Shown here piece after piece: positions 6,146-25,764 of a stretch of 64,000 nucleotides of DNA. The notes beneath the pieces are model-generated. The model did no database searches. It was not told where the DNA came from and saw only the letters and a program-made list of their open reading frames with translations. The stretch is from Halothermothrix orenii H 168. Lineage in GTDB: Bacteria; Bacillota; Halanaerobiia; Halanaerobiales; Halothermotrichaceae. The position numbers were made by a program, and so were the translations under genes. Position 1 is the first letter of the stretch, and the number at the start of each line of letters is the position of its first letter. The stretch is taken from positions 2,426,501 to 2,490,500 of the forward strand of contig NC_011899.1 in NCBI RefSeq assembly GCF_000020485.1, in the 5' to 3' direction.

Positions 6146-7525
6146 TTATAAATTTATACCGAGGAGTGGCCAGTAAAATTTACTGATTAACAATACCACT
6201 ACCCAGGAAATTATGTTCAAAATGACCCCAACCTTCAGGACATCACTTATCCTGTAATAACCAGCCGAAAACGCAATGGCATTGGGAGGAGTCCCCATGG
6301 GCAAACAGAAGGCTAAACCTCCTGATAGGGCAACAGCCAGTGTAGTTGCTATCGGGTTTATCTGACTTATTTCACCCCAGCTAAAGGCAAGGGGAAGTAT
6401 GATGGCCACAGCAGCCACATTACTGATCCCTTCGGTCAAAAGTTTAGTAACCAGGGTAATAACAGCAATAAAGATAAAGGGACTTACAGAAATACTGGAG
6501 AAAATCGTACTGGAGAGCCAGGCAGCAGCACCGGTAATACTCAGGGAGCTGGCTACAACAATAGCCCCTCCGTACATAAAGATTACTCCCCAGTTTACAT
6601 AATCTACAATGTCCTTCCACTTAACGATATCAAGGACGAAAATAGCCACTCCCCCCAGAAGGGCCGTAATAGCAATGTCAACCCTGGAGGATAGTAAAAG
6701 CCACATCAGAATAACCATTATAAGGACAGCAATCAGTTTTTTCTCCGATTTACTGAGTTGGCCCTGATTACCCATTATTTTTTCCAGTTTCTTTTTAGCC
6801 TCAACTGAGTCCGTTATTTCCGGTTTAAAGAAATATGTAATTGTAAAATAGGCCAGTATTAAAATTATAATGGGAATGGGAAGGGCCATAAGAATCCAGT
6901 TAACAAAACCTATGGAAATGTGATAATTTTTCTGGAGAATATCTACCGCCAGCAAATTCCGGGCTCCACCTAAATAGGTAGTTATCCCCCCGATAACAGC
7001 TCCCCAGGCCAGGGACAGGAACAGGGCCTTACCCAGTTGACTTTCCATCGGTTTTAAATTTAGACTGCGTGATATCTGAATCACTATCGGAAACAACAGG
7101 GCTGCTACAGCGTGTTCGGGCATAATACACGATAGGAGAGCTGCTGTTGTCAAAATACCACCAATTAAATTATTGGCACTCCCGTCAAAAAAAAGTAATA
7201 TCCGGTAAGCTATCCTGACCCCGAGGCCTGTTTTCTGGATTCCTGCAGCCAGAATTAAGGCCCCCAGGATAAAGAAGATAGCCTTATTCCCGAACAGAGA
7301 AAAGGACTCCTCAACATCCATAACCCCGAGTAAGGGAATCAAAGCCATACCCAGAAGGCTGGTCATAGCAAGGGGTATGATGTTAGTAACCCAGAGGGTT
7401 AAACTGATTATAAAAATGGCAAAGGCATTTTTGCCAGATACCGTAAGCCCTGCCGGTGGCGGTATTAACAATAAAAACAAACTTATTATAAGACCACAGA
7501 CGACAATTATCCTTTTTAACCTCAT
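6146..7525 (-). CDS. SLC13/DASS-family sodium:anion symporter
   Basis: Protein of 459 aa with many membrane segments. Family hallmarks are two related halves with 'ILGALILAAGIQKTGLGVRI' in the first and 'MGTPPNAIAFSAGYYRISDV' near the end, the conserved DASS signature region. Substrates in the family are dicarboxylates, citrate or sulfate, and sequence reading alone does not decide. The gene follows a small ribbon-helix-helix protein by 13 bases and a PHP-domain gene. The window also holds sat, cysC and a sulfotransferase, so sulfate is an attractive but inferred substrate. Confidence 0.88.
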   Translation of the reverse strand: MRLKRIIVVCGLIISLFLLLIPPPAGLTVSGKNAFAIFIISLTLWVTNIIPLAMTSLLGMALIPLLGVMDVEESFSLFGNKAIFFILGALILAAGIQKTGLGVRIAYRILLFFDGSANNLIGGILTTAALLSCIMPEHAVAALLFPIVIQISRSLNLKPMESQLGKALFLSLAWGAVIGGITTYLGGARNLLAVDILQKNYHISIGFVNWILMALPIPIIILILAYFTITYFFKPEITDSVEAKKKLEKIMGNQGQLSKSEKKLIAVLIMVILMWLLLSSRVDIAITALLGGVAIFVLDIVKWKDIVDYVNWGVIFMYGGAIVVASSLSITGAAAWLSSTIFSSISVSPFIFIAVITLVTKLLTEGISNVAAVAIILPLAFSWGEISQINPIATTLAVALSGGLAFCLPMGTPPNAIAFSAGYYRISDVLKVGVILNIISWVVVLLISKFYWPLLGINL

Positions 7526-15243: not shown

Positions 15244-15270
15244 AAACAAAGGCCCCTGTAACAGGGGCCT
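15244..15270 (-). terminator. Terminator of the AsnB-like gene
   Basis: AGGCCCCTG (15250-15258) pairs perfectly with CAGGGGCCT (15262-15270) around a three-base loop. On the minus strand it is followed by TTGTTTAATTT. It lies 17 bases after the stop codon. Confidence 0.8.
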
Positions 15271-15287: not shown

Positions 15288-16742
15288 TTAATTTACAGTC
15301 CGGGTCCTTCCGATGGTATCCAGGATTGACCGGTGGGGATAATACTCCCTGAAGATTCGGTAGTAATAAAGCTCTTCTTTACTCCTGAGGGTAACATCAT
15401 CAGAAATCTTTTTTTCCTTTTTAAACTCTTTATCACTTATAAATGACTCTATTTTGCTCTTTATAGTATCAGTGGTATTTGACCCCTCAAAAAATTTAGC
15501 CTTCTTTCGCCAGATAATCTCATCAGGAAGGTCATCCTCAAAGGCCTTCCTTAAAATCCATTTCTCCACCGGTTTATTACCATAAAGCTTCCACTTTACC
15601 GGAATACTGAAGGCAAATTTTACAATCTCTTTGTCCATAAAAGGCATATCATATAACAGGGAATGGGCCATATTCATTCTATCTACCCTCTGAAAACCAT
15701 TGGAATGGCCCGACATTGTTAGAACTTCAAGCTCTTCCCTGATATCAGCAAGGCTTTGCATGTCCTTTAAATAGTGATAACCACCAAATAACTCATCGCC
15801 ACCTTCACCACATAGTACCAGTTCAACCCCCGTCTCTTTGGCCAGCCTGCCAACAAAATAGTTGGCAATTGAACTGCGGACCAGATACTGGTCAAATGAT
15901 TCCAGCTGATAAATAACCTCAGGGACTATTTCCAGAGCCTCTTCTACAGTATACCGGTATTCATAGTGGTCGGTTCCCAGATGGTCTGCCACCAGCCTGG
16001 CTTTTTCCAGATCATTACTCCCTTTAGCCCCGACTGCAAAGGTTTTAATAACTTCCTTAACTTTCGAAGCTGCAGCCACAATAGTACTGCTATCAATCCC
16101 TCCACTTAAATATATGCCAGGGTTATCAATTCCACCAATTCTCCTCTTTACCGTTTTAATAAGTAAATTACGCAGCCTTTTTACCCCTTTATCGACTGAA
16201 GTTATCCTCTGTTTATGGGATACACCTTTAAAATATTCCTGAAACCCTACTTCAGAATGATAATAGTGTCCGGGAGGGAAGGTTTTAATCTCTGAATCAA
16301 ACTGGGCCAGACCCTTAATTTCAGAGGCAAATACAAATTTTTCACCAATATTACTATAGTACAGGGGTTTCAATCCTAAAGGATCCCGGGCCACAAAAAT
16401 ATTTTCCCCGTCAAAAATAGCAATAGCAAAGGGGCCATTAAAGTAGTGAACACATTCCTTCCCAAATTTATTATATAGTTCGATTATTTCACTATTGCCT
16501 TTAACCCATTGTCCATACCCTGAACTGTCTTTTTTTCCTTCAACTACCACCCTGCCATCGGAAATAGCTATAACCTCTTTCGGGGAATAATCCCCCTTAC
16601 CCTTAATCCGGGTACATCCCAGAACCCCCTTCGGGGCCTTATAAATTCTGGTACTTTCTGGACCCCGGTGTTCCATCTTTTTTAGGACATCTCTCACCAG
16701 TCCGGGGTCATCATCCTCGTAAACTCCTGCAATGCCACTCAT
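15288..16742 (-). CDS. Asparagine synthetase (AsnB)-like protein lacking the glutaminase cysteine
   Basis: Protein of 484 aa with the AsnB architecture: an Ntn-type N-terminal domain (about 1-165) and an ATP-PPase synthetase domain with PP-loop 'LSGGIDSST' (residues 212-220), 'CGEGGDELFGGYHY' and 'ALLYDMPF'-like segments. The normal N-terminal M-C-G-I is M-S-G-I here, so the nucleophilic cysteine for glutamine hydrolysis is a serine (codon AGT). The N-G-E motif that binds glutamine is also absent ('ISDGRVVVEGK'). It may use free ammonia, or it may catalyse a different amidation or cyclisation, as beta-lactam synthetase-type AsnB relatives do. SD GGAGG is about 15 bases from the ATG. It is monocistronic and divergent from rtcB. 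Confidence 0.85.
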   Translation of the reverse strand: MSGIAGVYEDDDPGLVRDVLKKMEHRGPESTRIYKAPKGVLGCTRIKGKGDYSPKEVIAISDGRVVVEGKKDSSGYGQWVKGNSEIIELYNKFGKECVHYFNGPFAIAIFDGENIFVARDPLGLKPLYYSNIGEKFVFASEIKGLAQFDSEIKTFPPGHYYHSEVGFQEYFKGVSHKQRITSVDKGVKRLRNLLIKTVKRRIGGIDNPGIYLSGGIDSSTIVAAASKVKEVIKTFAVGAKGSNDLEKARLVADHLGTDHYEYRYTVEEALEIVPEVIYQLESFDQYLVRSSIANYFVGRLAKETGVELVLCGEGGDELFGGYHYLKDMQSLADIREELEVLTMSGHSNGFQRVDRMNMAHSLLYDMPFMDKEIVKFAFSIPVKWKLYGNKPVEKWILRKAFEDDLPDEIIWRKKAKFFEGSNTTDTIKSKIESFISDKEFKKEKKISDDVTLRSKEELYYYRIFREYYPHRSILDTIGRTRTVN

Positions 16743-16922
16743 TGTGTTAGTGTAATACCTCCCTGGTTTTTATTACCTTTTTATTATCATTTAAAGATAA
16801 TAATAAAAATTCCTTCCTTTTTTTCTCAAAAATTTTAAGATAAGATGTCTTTTATAATTTATTTGTATTTATAGACATTTTTCAGAAAAGTTGATATTAT
16901 AAGAAAAAGGGAGGGGAATGTT

Positions 16923-18360: not shown

Positions 18361-19170
18361 CTAACTCAAACTGAGTAAACACCCCTCACTCAATTCAACC
18401 TTACTACTTTCTCCAAAAAGGCCGGGTTTACCCTGTTGCCTGGTCATACTGACCGTATGCAGGGCCAGGATATTATTTAAGCTGAACATTATTTCTCCTT
18501 TATTGACCACAAGTTTAAAGGGGATTTTTGTCTCCCAGTTTAAATTAAAATGGGATAGATTATTTTCCTGGATTATTTTATATTCAAACCACCGGTGTCC
18601 ATCGGTTCTTATATGTGGTAAATGCTTAATAAGCCTGACCGTATCTGTATCTGGTATTATTTCCACAAAATAACCACTGCTATCTTCACTGAGGTGGAAG
18701 GCAAAACCACCCCTGGCACCATCTATTTTTAACTTGCCTTTTAATAGAAAATCATTTAAAGGTTCATAGAAAGGTATTATTTGTAACCCTTCCTCCACCT
18801 GTAAAACCATCTTTTCCCTGCCATTTCCATAATCTGAATAAGAATTAACTAAAAGGGGCTTACCAAAGGCTATCGAAGTCTCTTTTTTGCCATCAAGATA
18901 GGGCTCAAGAAGCCTGTCCGATATTCCCAGATACAACCTCCCCCCTTCTTCCTGTCTTACTTCAGGGAAAATGGGAAGGTATTTCTTTAAAGAGCCACCA
19001 TCTGCTTTCAAATCTCCCGATGGATAAGGCCCATCTACTTCAAAATAGGTCCAGCAGCCGTACCTCACCTTCCCCCTGAAGGAAACAACCTTTCCAGCAT
19101 AATGGCTATGAGGAACAAAAAGCCGGTTATCACCTAATGCCCGGTAGGGGCCTTCCAGTCTTTCCGACAC
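18361..19170 (-). CDS. C-terminal part of the frameshifted GH32-like gene
   Basis: Open frame of 269 aa from an internal ATG ('MSERLEGPYRALGDNRLF'). It holds the last blade of the propeller and a beta-sandwich ('LKIDGARGGFAFHLSEDS', 'FKLVVNKGEIMFSLNNIL') like the C-terminal domain of GH32 enzymes. There is no SD before the ATG, and the frame really continues upstream to about 19221, so it is not an independent gene. Confidence 0.6.
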   Translation of the reverse strand: MSERLEGPYRALGDNRLFVPHSHYAGKVVSFRGKVRYGCWTYFEVDGPYPSGDLKADGGSLKKYLPIFPEVRQEEGGRLYLGISDRLLEPYLDGKKETSIAFGKPLLVNSYSDYGNGREKMVLQVEEGLQIIPFYEPLNDFLLKGKLKIDGARGGFAFHLSEDSSGYFVEIIPDTDTVRLIKHLPHIRTDGHRWFEYKIIQENNLSHFNLNWETKIPFKLVVNKGEIMFSLNNILALHTVSMTRQQGKPGLFGESSKVELSEGCLLSLS

Positions 19171-19196
19171 CCAGTAACGCTGACTCCTGTCTTCAA

Positions 19197-19829
19197 TTAT
19201 TGAGGCAAATATGTAATAATAATCACTATTTTAAATAACTGGGGACATTCCAGGTCATAAAACTGCCCCGGGGCAAATAGTGGTTTTTTTACCTCCCAGT
19301 CAATTAAATTATCAGAAACAGCCAGGGCTACCACACCTCTCCTGAGGAAAGGACCTGAATTACTCCGGCTGGAAATAACCATATAGTACTTACCGTTTTC
19401 GTAATATATCTTGGGGTCCCGCCAGGAGACCATTATTTTGTCTCCCAGTTCATTTTCATACCAACGGCTGTCGGCGGATAAAACAGGATTCCCATCGTAT
19501 TTTTCCCAGTTTATCAGGTCAGGAGACACAGCCATGGCTGTCCTCTGAACCCGACCAGCCTCCCTGGTGGAACAGGCAGTATAGAACATATAAAACTTCC
19601 CCTTATGTCTGGTAACACCCATGGTCCAGATACGATCATCATCATAGCTCCCTGTATCACCGATAGTAATGGCCGTAGGGAGGCTATCCCAGATTATCCC
19701 ATCATCAGAAACAAGGTGCCTTACCGCACTGTTCCCCGGTGATACCAGATGGAAAAGGTGGAGTCTATCATTGTGTACTATCAAATCTACATCTCCCACC
19801 GAGTCTTTAAAGCTTCTTAAATAGTACAT
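19197..19829 (-). CDS. N-terminal part of the frameshifted GH32-like gene
   Basis: Open frame of 210 aa with GGAG ten bases before its ATG at 19829. It carries most of the five-bladed propeller, including the RDP and EC motifs, and ends about ten residues after the frameshift. No signal peptide is present, so the intact enzyme would be cytoplasmic and act on imported oligosaccharides. Confidence 0.65.
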   Translation of the reverse strand: MYYLRSFKDSVGDVDLIVHNDRLHLFHLVSPGNSAVRHLVSDDGIIWDSLPTAITIGDTGSYDDDRIWTMGVTRHKGKFYMFYTACSTREAGRVQRTAMAVSPDLINWEKYDGNPVLSADSRWYENELGDKIMVSWRDPKIYYENGKYYMVISSRSNSGPFLRRGVVALAVSDNLIDWEVKKPLFAPGQFYDLECPQLFKIVIIITYLPQ

Positions 19830-23344: not shown

Positions 23345-23383
23345 TTAACCTTCAACATGGGTAAAAATTAACCTTCAACCTGG
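23345..23383. repeat. Direct repeat duplicating a gene's 3' end
   Basis: TTAACCTTCAACMTGG occurs at 23345-23360 and 23368-23383 (15 of 16 identical). The second copy contains the stop codon and last codons of the phospholipase C-like gene, and the first is a displaced duplicate just downstream of that stop. Confidence 0.65.
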
Positions 23384-24237
23384 ACAAGGGGCAGCAGAAA
23401 AGACTTTACCTCTTCCTGGTTCAACCTGCCGTTAATATATTGACATACTACATCTATAAACTCTGCTGCCTCATCTACCCCTTTTTCAAATCCGGTCATA
23501 ACCTCTTCTTTCTCCTCATTTTCTAAAAACCCACTCTGTACCTTTTCCGGATAGCTATAGATTGTTATATCAAGGGGTAAGAGCCAATTTAAAACCTTCA
23601 GTAACATTTTTTTAAGATATCGGGGACTGTAAAAAATTCGTTGTACCCTCTTCATATCACGGTAGGCGCCATTGATAAACCCTGCCAGGTCTTCATCTGC
23701 CATCCTGTAGCCATAAACCTTTTTTAAAATATAGTGGTAAAAAGCCTCTATTTCCCCGGGTAAATTAGGCCCCACTTCAATAGCTTCCCTAGAATAAAGG
23801 CGGTCAGCCCTCTGCCCCTTCAAGCGGGCCATTAAATATGTATCCAGCTGGATCTCAAACCATTTATGTTCTAAACTATTACTGGTCCTTGAATTAATCA
23901 AAGGGTGTAACCACTTATCCAGGGAAAGATGGGTGATAAGGCCGGCCAGGTAACTTCCCAGTAGGGGGAAATCGGCTTTACAGGATAAATCTTTAAGGTA
24001 ATCAACGCCGGTAATAAGAAACTGGTCCACTTTTTTCAAATGGAGATCAGCCCCGGTAGCCGGCCCTTTTTTATTTTTAATCCAGGGCCAGAATTGATGG
24101 TAAAAGAAAAAATCAGGCCCCTGACACCCCAGGTTAAAGACTTTTATATTATCTTTTATAATCTCCTGAAACTTTTTATCCTCCAGTTTGTCAATAACCC
24201 TCTCCCCGGCCAGGATATGTGTCCAGAAATCAGGCAT
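23368..24237 (-). CDS. Zinc-dependent phospholipase C-like protein
   Basis: Protein of 289 aa of the zinc PLC/S1-nuclease-like group. The N-terminus 'MPDFWTHILAGERVIDKL' has the W and H that ligate zinc in the family. 'GCQGPDFFFYHQFWPW' and 'LITHLSLDKWLHPLINSRT' supply further D and H ligands. The ATG at 24237 is chosen over 24267 because AGGAGG lies seven bases before it. There is no signal peptide, unlike secreted clostridial phospholipases, so this is a cytoplasmic member of unknown substrate. It diverges from the deacetylase gene across 156 bases. Confidence 0.85.
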   Translation of the reverse strand: MPDFWTHILAGERVIDKLEDKKFQEIIKDNIKVFNLGCQGPDFFFYHQFWPWIKNKKGPATGADLHLKKVDQFLITGVDYLKDLSCKADFPLLGSYLAGLITHLSLDKWLHPLINSRTSNSLEHKWFEIQLDTYLMARLKGQRADRLYSREAIEVGPNLPGEIEAFYHYILKKVYGYRMADEDLAGFINGAYRDMKRVQRIFYSPRYLKKMLLKVLNWLLPLDITIYSYPEKVQSGFLENEEKEEVMTGFEKGVDEAAEFIDVVCQYINGRLNQEEVKSFLLPLVQVEG

Positions 24238-24393
24238 AATTATTCCTCCTATCCAGACTGTGTCCATATTTATTTTTTATATGATTGTAGTTATAATACA
24301 AGACCCGAAATCACATGGATTATGGTCACATTTATTCTCTACCCAGTTTATGGTATAATTAAAAATAAAAAAAATCAACCGGCAGGTGATATA

Positions 24394-25764
24394 ATGCCAG
24401 ATTCAATTAAAAATATTAAGGCAAAAAATAAACTGGGCCTTATTTTCTTCCCGGCCTTTGACTGGGCTATCTCCCCCACCCATCCGGAGCGGGAAGAACG
24501 CCTCCTCTATACCAGGGACCAGGTCTTTGAGGAGGGGCTTATGGATATTGATGGTATTAAGGAATTTAACCCCGGAATCGCGGAGGAAAAAGATGTCCAG
24601 AAGGTTCATATCTGTGTCCCTGAAGTAAAGAAAGTAACCACTCCATCCCACCTTATATCAGCCGGGGGAGCCATTAAAGCCGCCGGGCTTGTTTTAAATA
24701 AAGAAGTTGACAAGGCTTTTGCCATCGTCAGACCACCAGGCCACCACGCCTTCCGGGTAGTTCACGGAGCCAGAGGATTTTGTAATATCAATAATGAGGC
24801 CATCATGGTTGAAGCCATCCGGTCAAAATACCCGGATCTGAAAATAGCCTTTGTAGATACTGATGCCCATCATGCCGATGGTACCCAGGAAATATTTTAT
24901 CATGACCCCCATGTCTTACATATATCACTTCATCAGAATGGGAGAACCCTCTTTCCGGGATCCGGTTTTACAAACGAAGTGGGAGGGCCCGGGGCCTATG
25001 CCAGAACCCTCAACATACCCCTCCCCCCCTACACTACTGACGAAGGCCTGCATTACGTCCTGGATAACCTGGTATTACCGGTTTTAGAAGATTTTAAGCC
25101 TGACCTCATCATTAACGCAGCCGGCCAGGATAATCACTATTCTGACCCCTTAACCAATATGAAAATATCAGCCCGGGGATATGCCGAATTAAATGCCAGA
25201 CTCAACCCCGATATTGCCATTCTTCAGGGTGGTTATTCTATAGAAAGTGCCCTTCCCTATATCAATGTTGGGCTCATCCTGGCCATGGCCGGCCTTGATT
25301 ATAGTAATGTCAGGGAACCAGATTTTGACAGCCGGAACCTGACTCAGGACCCGGTCATAACAGATAATATCAAAAATACGGTTGCTGTCCTGAGGGAAAT
25401 CTGGGAAAACCGGAATAACCAGGCACCAGTCCCTGATACAGGTGAATTTACTATTAAGAACAATTTCTATGAAAGGGAAAAACACATCTTTTATGATACT
25501 GACGGTATAAATGAACTCCAGCGAGAGCGGGTAAAAGCCTGTCCCGACTGCCCTGGATATATTATTATCGACTCCAGGGCTGAAAAGGGCTTTAGAAATA
25601 CCCGTATCAAAGCCATAAGTATCCCCTTAAAGGCCTGCAAGAATTGTCACGAAGAGGCACACCTCAAATTTGAGGAGGCAAAAAAAGAGGCAGGTAATAA
25701 GTATGATTACCTCTACCTGCAGGATGTAAAGGGAGAAGAATTTGTAACCTATCCTTCTCCCTGA
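24394..25764 (+). CDS. Histone deacetylase family protein with C-terminal CxxC extension
   Basis: Protein of 456 aa from the ATG at 24394 (GGTGAT SD; a TATAAT at 24354-24359 lies upstream). The catalytic His pair is 'RPPGHHAFR', zinc ligands are in 'DTDAHHADGTQE' and 'AAGQDNHYSDP', and the transition-state tyrosine is in 'QGGYSIESALPY'. This makes it an intact arginase-fold zinc deacetylase, related to AcuC and acetylpolyamine amidohydrolases. About 120 residues follow the core and carry two CxxC pairs ('KACPDCPGYI', 'KACKNCHEEAH') that could hold a second zinc. Likely substrates are acetylated small amines or acetyl-lysine proteins; none is indicated by context. Confidence 0.9.
   Translation: MPDSIKNIKAKNKLGLIFFPAFDWAISPTHPEREERLLYTRDQVFEEGLMDIDGIKEFNPGIAEEKDVQKVHICVPEVKKVTTPSHLISAGGAIKAAGLVLNKEVDKAFAIVRPPGHHAFRVVHGARGFCNINNEAIMVEAIRSKYPDLKIAFVDTDAHHADGTQEIFYHDPHVLHISLHQNGRTLFPGSGFTNEVGGPGAYARTLNIPLPPYTTDEGLHYVLDNLVLPVLEDFKPDLIINAAGQDNHYSDPLTNMKISARGYAELNARLNPDIAILQGGYSIESALPYINVGLILAMAGLDYSNVREPDFDSRNLTQDPVITDNIKNTVAVLREIWENRNNQAPVPDTGEFTIKNNFYEREKHIFYDTDGINELQRERVKACPDCPGYIIIDSRAEKGFRNTRIKAISIPLKACKNCHEEAHLKFEEAKKEAGNKYDYLYLQDVKGEEFVTYPSP

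Follow-up and report, generated by a model that had tools for sequence, protein, structure and literature searches.

How does an asparagine synthetase work once it has lost the residue with which it draws nitrogen from glutamine? The question is raised by one gene in the window examined here (the whole stretch of 64,000 nucleotides that was analysed, from the halophilic thermophile Halothermothrix orenii H168), whose product, P0001, resembles AsnB throughout its length and lacks the catalytic N-terminal cysteine. To judge from the sequence, it is well supported that the glutaminase half of P0001 is dead while the synthetase half looks intact, so that free ammonia, or some other amine, is probably used directly.

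An inactivated glutaminase half

The gene is an open reading frame of 484 codons for amino acids, starting with an ATG at 16742 and closing with a stop at 15290-15288; the nine open codons upstream of it contain no alternative start codon.

15288..16742, minus strand: coding sequence of P0001, a predicted glutaminase-dead AsnB-type synthetase, 484 aa (ORF and family searches)
16737..16739, minus strand: codon 2, AGT (Ser), where the catalytic N-terminal Cys is expected (aligned with E. coli Cys1)
16551..16559, minus strand: D62-G63-R64, replacing the glutamine-binding N74-G75-E76 (alignment)

The N-terminus reads M-S-G-I-A-G, and the serine that the preliminary description had placed at the site of the catalytic cysteine, on the strength of codon AGT, does align with E. 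coli Cys1 (16739-16737). A sequencing slip is not the cause, since the serine recurs in the closest relatives whose N-terminus can be read (in genomes G324, G388 and G506). The same description had found the NGE motif missing, as it is, with DGR at residues 62-64, and the loss extends further than was claimed: four of seven glutaminase markers (C1, R30, R49, N74, G75, E76, D98) are gone, leaving R30, R49 and G75, and the E. coli tunnel residue M120 is a proline. Within the set Arg49, Asn74, Glu76 and Asp98, which we take to be the glutamine-binding residues, just the arginine is kept; Asn74 has become Asp, Glu76 has become Arg, and the place of Asp98 holds Asn or Gly depending on the alignment. 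Against Pfam, P0001 matches Asn_synthase at 219 bits and GATase_7 weakly, at 60 bits over residues 80-146 alone. Genome-wide (a single contig of 2,578,146 bases), Asn_synthase matches the two halves of P0001 and nothing else.

A synthetase half of the AsnB type

In the C-terminal half the following features can be placed, with E. coli residues numbered from Cys = 1.

16086..16109, minus strand: PP loop, L212-S219, LSGGIDSS (sequence and alignment)
15870..15893, minus strand: D284-S291 (DQYLVRSS), Asp and Arg kept, E. coli Thr321/Thr322 replaced by Tyr286/Leu287 (alignment)
15792..15812, minus strand: C311-E317 (CGEGGDE), E. coli Glu348, Asp351 and Glu352 kept, Ser346 replaced by Cys (alignment)
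15696..15698, minus strand: G349, equivalent of E. coli AsnB Asp384 and beta-lactam synthetase Glu382 (alignments)
15687..15689, minus strand: R352, equivalent of E. coli Arg387, invariant (alignment)
15501..15503, minus strand: K414, equivalent of E. coli Lys449, invariant (alignment)

The earlier view that the ATP-PPase half is intact thus holds good: beside the LSGGIDSS loop, P0001 keeps the SGGxDSS pattern and the equivalents of E. coli Asp238, Asp279, Asp319, Arg324, Glu348, Asp351, Glu352, Arg387, Lys429 and Lys449. In the alignment sample of its clade, all 22 members retain Ser234, Gly235, Gly236, Asp238, Asp279, Asp319, Glu348, Asp351, Glu352, Arg387, Lys429 and Lys449, and Arg324 is replaced in nine of the 22 (by Asn in six). 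Human ASNS Glu364 and Asp367, which occupy the places of E. coli Glu348 and Asp351, are described in one report as required for ammonia-dependent activity and as touching the amino and carboxylate groups of aspartyl-AMP (PMC6748925). In the aspartate pocket, whose conservation the preliminary description had proposed as a check, two threonines, Thr321/Thr322, have given way to Tyr/Leu. The acid cluster (Glu348, Asp351, Glu352) stands, and Asp384 is Gly. Replacement of the two threonines is general in this branch of the family, in Cys-bearing and Cys-less members alike.

An AF2 model of P0001 (pLDDT 88.8, pTM 0.90, from 39 aligned sequences) finds its best structural match, by Z, in E. coli AsnB (1CT9; Z 46.2, rmsd 2.1 over 464 residues), with human ASNS at Z 41.7-42.4, beta-lactam synthetase at 35.2-36.1, TsnB9 at 34.8 and carbapenam synthetase at 28.8-30.5. 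Among family profiles, P0001 passes the cut-off of TIGR01536 (asn_synth_AEB; 280 bits against 267.1) and falls below those of PRK09431 (410.5 against 499), of N-acetylglutaminylglutamine amide synthetase TIGR03104 (146.9 against 570.1) and of the lasso peptide cyclase NF033535 (130 against 525). P0001 shares with AsnB (E. coli 1CT9; human ASNS) the two-domain fold, the PP loop, the catalytic acid cluster, the lysines and a TIGR01536 score over cut-off, and differs from it in having no Cys1, DGR for NGE, no Asp98, Pro for Met120, Gly for Asp384, Tyr/Leu for Thr321/Thr322 and a score under the PRK09431 cut-off.

Recurrent loss of the cysteine in a widespread branch

At E < 1e-60, relatives occur in 12 genomes besides its own among 101 searched, and a search of 398 genomes of the phylum added more. 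Within its own order the distribution is patchy, with full-length relatives in three of 37 order relatives besides the genome itself (G004, G027, G030). The nearest relatives (G324, at 54% identity, G388, G368 and G506) all belong to the class of G095, and, as G095 is kin only at the level of the phylum, horizontal transfer may have brought the gene in. Orthologues with Cys2 in near relatives had been named in advance as evidence against the first reading of this gene; the nearest that can be read are all Ser (L157, L158, L261; the N-terminus of L170, from G368, is not readable), and Cys-bearing members are found elsewhere in the branch. Some genomes (G388, G355, G415) hold both kinds, one Cys copy with at least one Cys-less copy. 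In G109, two Ser copies stand beside a Cys-bearing AsnB copy that is cut by an in-frame TAG (L165:9029 onward); intact Cys-bearing copies are known in other genomes.

In this short AsnB branch 41 of the 66 readable members are Cys-less, the cysteine being replaced by Ser (29), Ala (7), Arg (3), Tyr (1) or Gly (1); these counts omit L165 (internal TAG), L186 (a fragment, with Ser), L252 and L253 (unreadable N-terminus) and L053 and L170 (no N-terminus). The motif filter missed a further eight loci (L185, L187, L189-L194), each of which proved to be an ordinary AsnB that has Cys and NGE and carries Asp at 384. A phylogeny, which the preliminary description had also suggested, was built on the synthetase domain with column 384 omitted (72 rows: the 66 labelled members, two without an N-terminus and four outgroup rows), and on it the Cys-less state arose repeatedly: seven changes between Cys and not-Cys are needed, and a single clade for the 41 Cys-less rows is rejected (log-likelihood lower by 339, p-AU 1.7e-51, on a quick tree of 70 rows without L053 and L170). 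The clade of P0001 comprises 24 rows, none with Cys and one of unknown N-terminus, with support 92, rising to 98 for its nearest five rows.

Erosion of the rest of the domain accompanies the loss. Of the 41 Cys-less rows, 35 have Asp where Asn74 stood. Met120, the counterpart by alignment of human Val119 (a tunnel residue according to PMC11615228), persists in 24 of 25 Cys-bearing rows and in four of the 41 without Cys. For pairs at 40-65% C-domain identity, which are not independent of one another, the ratio of N- to C-domain identity is 0.94 between Cys members (277 pairs) and 0.67 between Cys-less members (541 pairs), a difference that points to faster drift of the N-domain in the Cys-less members.

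A residue of the synthetase site that tracks the glutaminase inside the branch

The best separator of Cys from Cys-less rows among 300 synthetase columns is that of E. coli Asp384. It holds 23 Asn, one Asp and one Gly in the 25 Cys rows, and 27 Gly, 11 Ala, two Asn and one Thr in the 41 Cys-less rows. Scored by the seven glutaminase markers, a set applied after rows L249, L250, L258 and L261 had been seen, Asn or Asp occupies the site in all 23 rows with intact markers and is absent from 40 of 43 broken rows, the exceptions being L092 (in which only Gly75 has changed), L181 and L249. An earlier set of 23 Cys and 39 Cys-less rows had fewer exceptions, and the four added rows brought two more by Cys alone: L249, a Ser row with Asn at 384, whose loss looks recent from its place as the short-branch sister of Cys row L184, and L250, a Cys row with Gly at 384, which has lost Arg49, Asn74, Gly75 and Asp98 and so obeys the glutaminase rule while breaking the Cys rule.

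Among 71 sequences of E. coli-type AsnB, 68 have Asp at this place and three have Asn; that all 71 carry Cys follows by construction, because only frames whose Cys start was recognised entered the set (67 of the 70 loci, plus four). The set excludes L067, L064 and L087 (of which L064 and L087 were reassigned to the branch) as well as a Cys-less second copy from each of L097, L100 and L101. These last are Flavobacterium loci with a tandem AsnB pair, of which the second (near 6800) lacks the catalytic Cys (Gly or Ser), a separate loss outside the branch. The second copies of L097 (MGGIL, NGEIY) and L100 (MSGIL, DGEIY), the two in which 384 was read, have NGE/DGE motifs that are otherwise little altered and keep Asp at 384, so the coupling is not general; that of L101 starts MSGLL. 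In a pair test on starred branches, five pairs gave on average 3.8 in the same direction and none opposite (p 0.125, with 0.05 out of reach). Inside the branch the link between 384 and the glutaminase thus appears strong by count, yet unproven against shared descent. The equivalent in human ASNS is Asp400, described as part of a synthetase-site network that also includes Asp334 and Arg403 (PMC6748925).

Genomic setting and the supply of asparagine

P0001 looks like a single transcription unit, between a divergent RtcB RNA ligase gene upstream and a patatin-like phospholipase gene downstream.

16800..16829, minus strand: promoter-like site TTGAGA-18-TATTAT upstream of P0001 (scan, weak: 6 sites against 4.7 expected in the stretch)
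15250..15270, minus strand: terminator-like hairpin past the stop (scan, chance level: 1 found against 1.8 expected)

No conserved neighbour specific to P0001 emerged from 13 compared loci or from a wider locus set, the neighbourhood comparisons revealed no biosynthetic cluster, and Rfam gave no match near the gene. One family is shared nearby in five genomes, a 690-residue chemoreceptor-like protein (assigned by reading its sequence). Cys-bearing copies elsewhere often adjoin an Octopine_DH gene and a gene for a B12-binding protein weakly like methylaspartate mutase E (L159:5775-8566, L160:6567-9313, also G428, G225 and others), and these with the AsnB step could possibly form a small pathway.

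The genome carries AsnRS (626.9 bits, over cut-off) and GatB, and AsnA has no match in it. Across 26 Cys-less genomes of known AsnRS state (eight more lie outside this count), AsnRS passes its cut-off in 16 and is lacking in 10, and AsnA stands beside the Cys-less gene in three of 11 tested genomes (G040, G049, G078); neither comparison reveals a clear link. Supplying AsnRS is accordingly not the general role of Cys-less genes, which occur without AsnRS and beside AsnA. The genome's own AspRS (L217) has His/Gly at the places of E. coli Leu30/Lys81, despite the presence of AsnRS; we take this to be the non-discriminating signature, and together with GatB it means that asparagine could also arise on tRNA. 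AspRS type was considered as proof of a need for P0001 and rejected, given the genome's own His/Gly and the occurrence of both Leu and His in genomes of the phylum without AsnRS, where the signature consequently does not predict the route (rows G394 and G066, in the wrong frame, are uninformative). Several order relatives with AsnRS (such as G002, G005 and G007) match neither AsnA nor Asn_synthase, and presumably take up asparagine from the medium or form it on tRNA, as has been reported for Bdellovibrio (PMC4206432).

Proposed formation of asparagine from free ammonia, and the competing readings

On the sequence and the model together, we lean, by a little, towards P0001 being a glutaminase-dead, ammonia-dependent synthetase that makes asparagine or a close aspartate beta-amide. 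The N-terminal Ntn glutaminase domain would keep its fold and neither cut glutamine nor hold it properly; the C-terminal ATP-pyrophosphatase domain would activate a carboxylate as acyl-AMP, the likeliest being aspartate's beta-carboxylate; and external free ammonia would attack this intermediate. Aspartate as the acid is suggested by the kept acid cluster (human Glu364, Asp367, Glu368) and by family kinship. Loss of the 384 side chain might open or retune the nucleophile side once ammonia ceases to arrive through the tunnel. The other glutamine-binding residues may have been lost because an enzyme lacking Cys would be blocked by the glutamine it bound. Human ASNS mutated at Cys-1, in work by Sheng in 1993, reportedly keeps ammonia-dependent activity and is inhibited by glutamine through an abortive complex. 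A natural Cys-less enzyme with an intact synthetase half should therefore work with ammonia and gain by losing glutamine binding, and the sequences fit. Caution is advised by the replaced Thr321/Thr322, by Gly in place of Asp384 and by the lack of a tie between Cys-less genes and AsnRS.

The most interesting alternative is that a bulkier amine attacks activated aspartate (or a relative of it), with Gly or Ala at 384 making room for it and with tunnel and glutaminase having become useless. The small residue at the best-separating column would fit such an amide ligase, as would the alignment of 384 with a Glu of beta-lactam synthetase that is presumably catalytic, the keeping of tunnel M120 in Cys-bearing rows and its loss from most Cys-less ones, and the failure of Cys-less genes to follow AsnRS. 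No cluster or partner gene points to a second substrate, however, and repeated independent losses are more easily explained by an unchanged product; we think this unlikely for P0001. Put for the branch as a whole, that a widespread lineage dropped glutamine often and in parallel, mostly with Asn/Asp384 to Gly/Ala, to yield ligases of activated aspartate and an amine other than ammonia, the proposal is a tentative one that we would not expect to hold.

The acid, rather than the amine, might instead differ, the entire branch, Cys-bearing members included, amidating with ammonia something other than free aspartate, such as a modified aspartate. Loss of both threonines regardless of the cysteine would suit this, as would the opine-dehydrogenase-like and B12-binding genes that adjoin some Cys-bearing copies, but P0001 has no such neighbours and the residues that PMC6748925 places in contact with aspartyl-AMP (human Asp367, Glu364) are invariant here, which makes it improbable. 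A pseudoenzyme, regulator or decaying gene would account for the patchy occurrence (three of 37 order relatives) and the fast drift of the N-domain; it is very hard to reconcile with SGG-D, Glu348, Asp351, Glu352, Arg387, Lys429 and Lys449 kept in 22 of 22 clade members, and we give it very little credence.

Beta-lactam and carbapenam synthetases share the AsnB fold with P0001; they too lack the catalytic Cys, their glutaminase domain is dead, and both belong to antibiotic clusters. In the alignment, which supplies the beta-lactam synthetase numbering and leaves CarA outside, Tyr348 and Glu382 stand at the places of E. coli Glu348 and Asp384, where P0001 has Glu313 and Gly349; we take the pair to be the catalytic Tyr-Glu dyad, which is said to be the subject, by its title, of a 2009 paper by Raber. 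The preliminary description had allowed for either an ammonia-dependent enzyme or a different amide- or lactam-forming one. That glutamine use has gone and the synthetase half has stayed is well supported; an intramolecular amide former of this kind is the least credible reading of all, given Glu313 and Gly349, the greater nearness of AsnB in sequence and in fold (the structural Z being lower for the lactam formers) and a lone gene with neither cluster nor pathway.

Place among known systems

P0001 thus appears, as far as sequence can tell, to be an AsnB that has given up glutamine, one of a branch in which that loss recurred; its enzyme chemistry is predicted. AsnA has the fold of class II aminoacyl-tRNA synthetases, unrelated to that of P0001, and shares with it the proposed reaction of aspartate, ATP and ammonia. 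In the NAD synthetase family, according to a 2012 survey, ammonia-only and glutamine-using forms coexist, and a table there gives AsnB as glutaminase-fused throughout 700 genomes (100%) and as lacking the domain in none (PMC3376133). The ammonia-only NAD synthetases have no glutaminase domain, whereas P0001 has kept and inactivated its own. A domain that is present but dead would make the label 'glutamine-hydrolyzing' wrong for most sampled members of the branch. A described natural Cys-less, ammonia-dependent AsnB was not found in the open-access literature, subscription journals lying mostly outside the search.

Taken together, the parallel losses make up a series in nature, with L249 and L057 among its little-eroded members. 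Cys and Asn74 would have gone first, residue 384 soon after and the rest of the domain later, and the series makes the coupling of two active sites testable through swaps at one residue.

Other features of the window

Two further loci in the window deserve mention. At 18361-19829, on the minus strand, two ORFs seem to be pieces of one GH32-type glycosidase, the first (210 aa) with a GH32 N-terminal match and the second (269 aa) with no Pfam match; the gene is possibly broken. At 24040-25764, on the plus strand, a histone-deacetylase-type protein has a long, odd N-terminal stretch over an opposite-strand ORF (23368-24267), and its true start probably lies further in.
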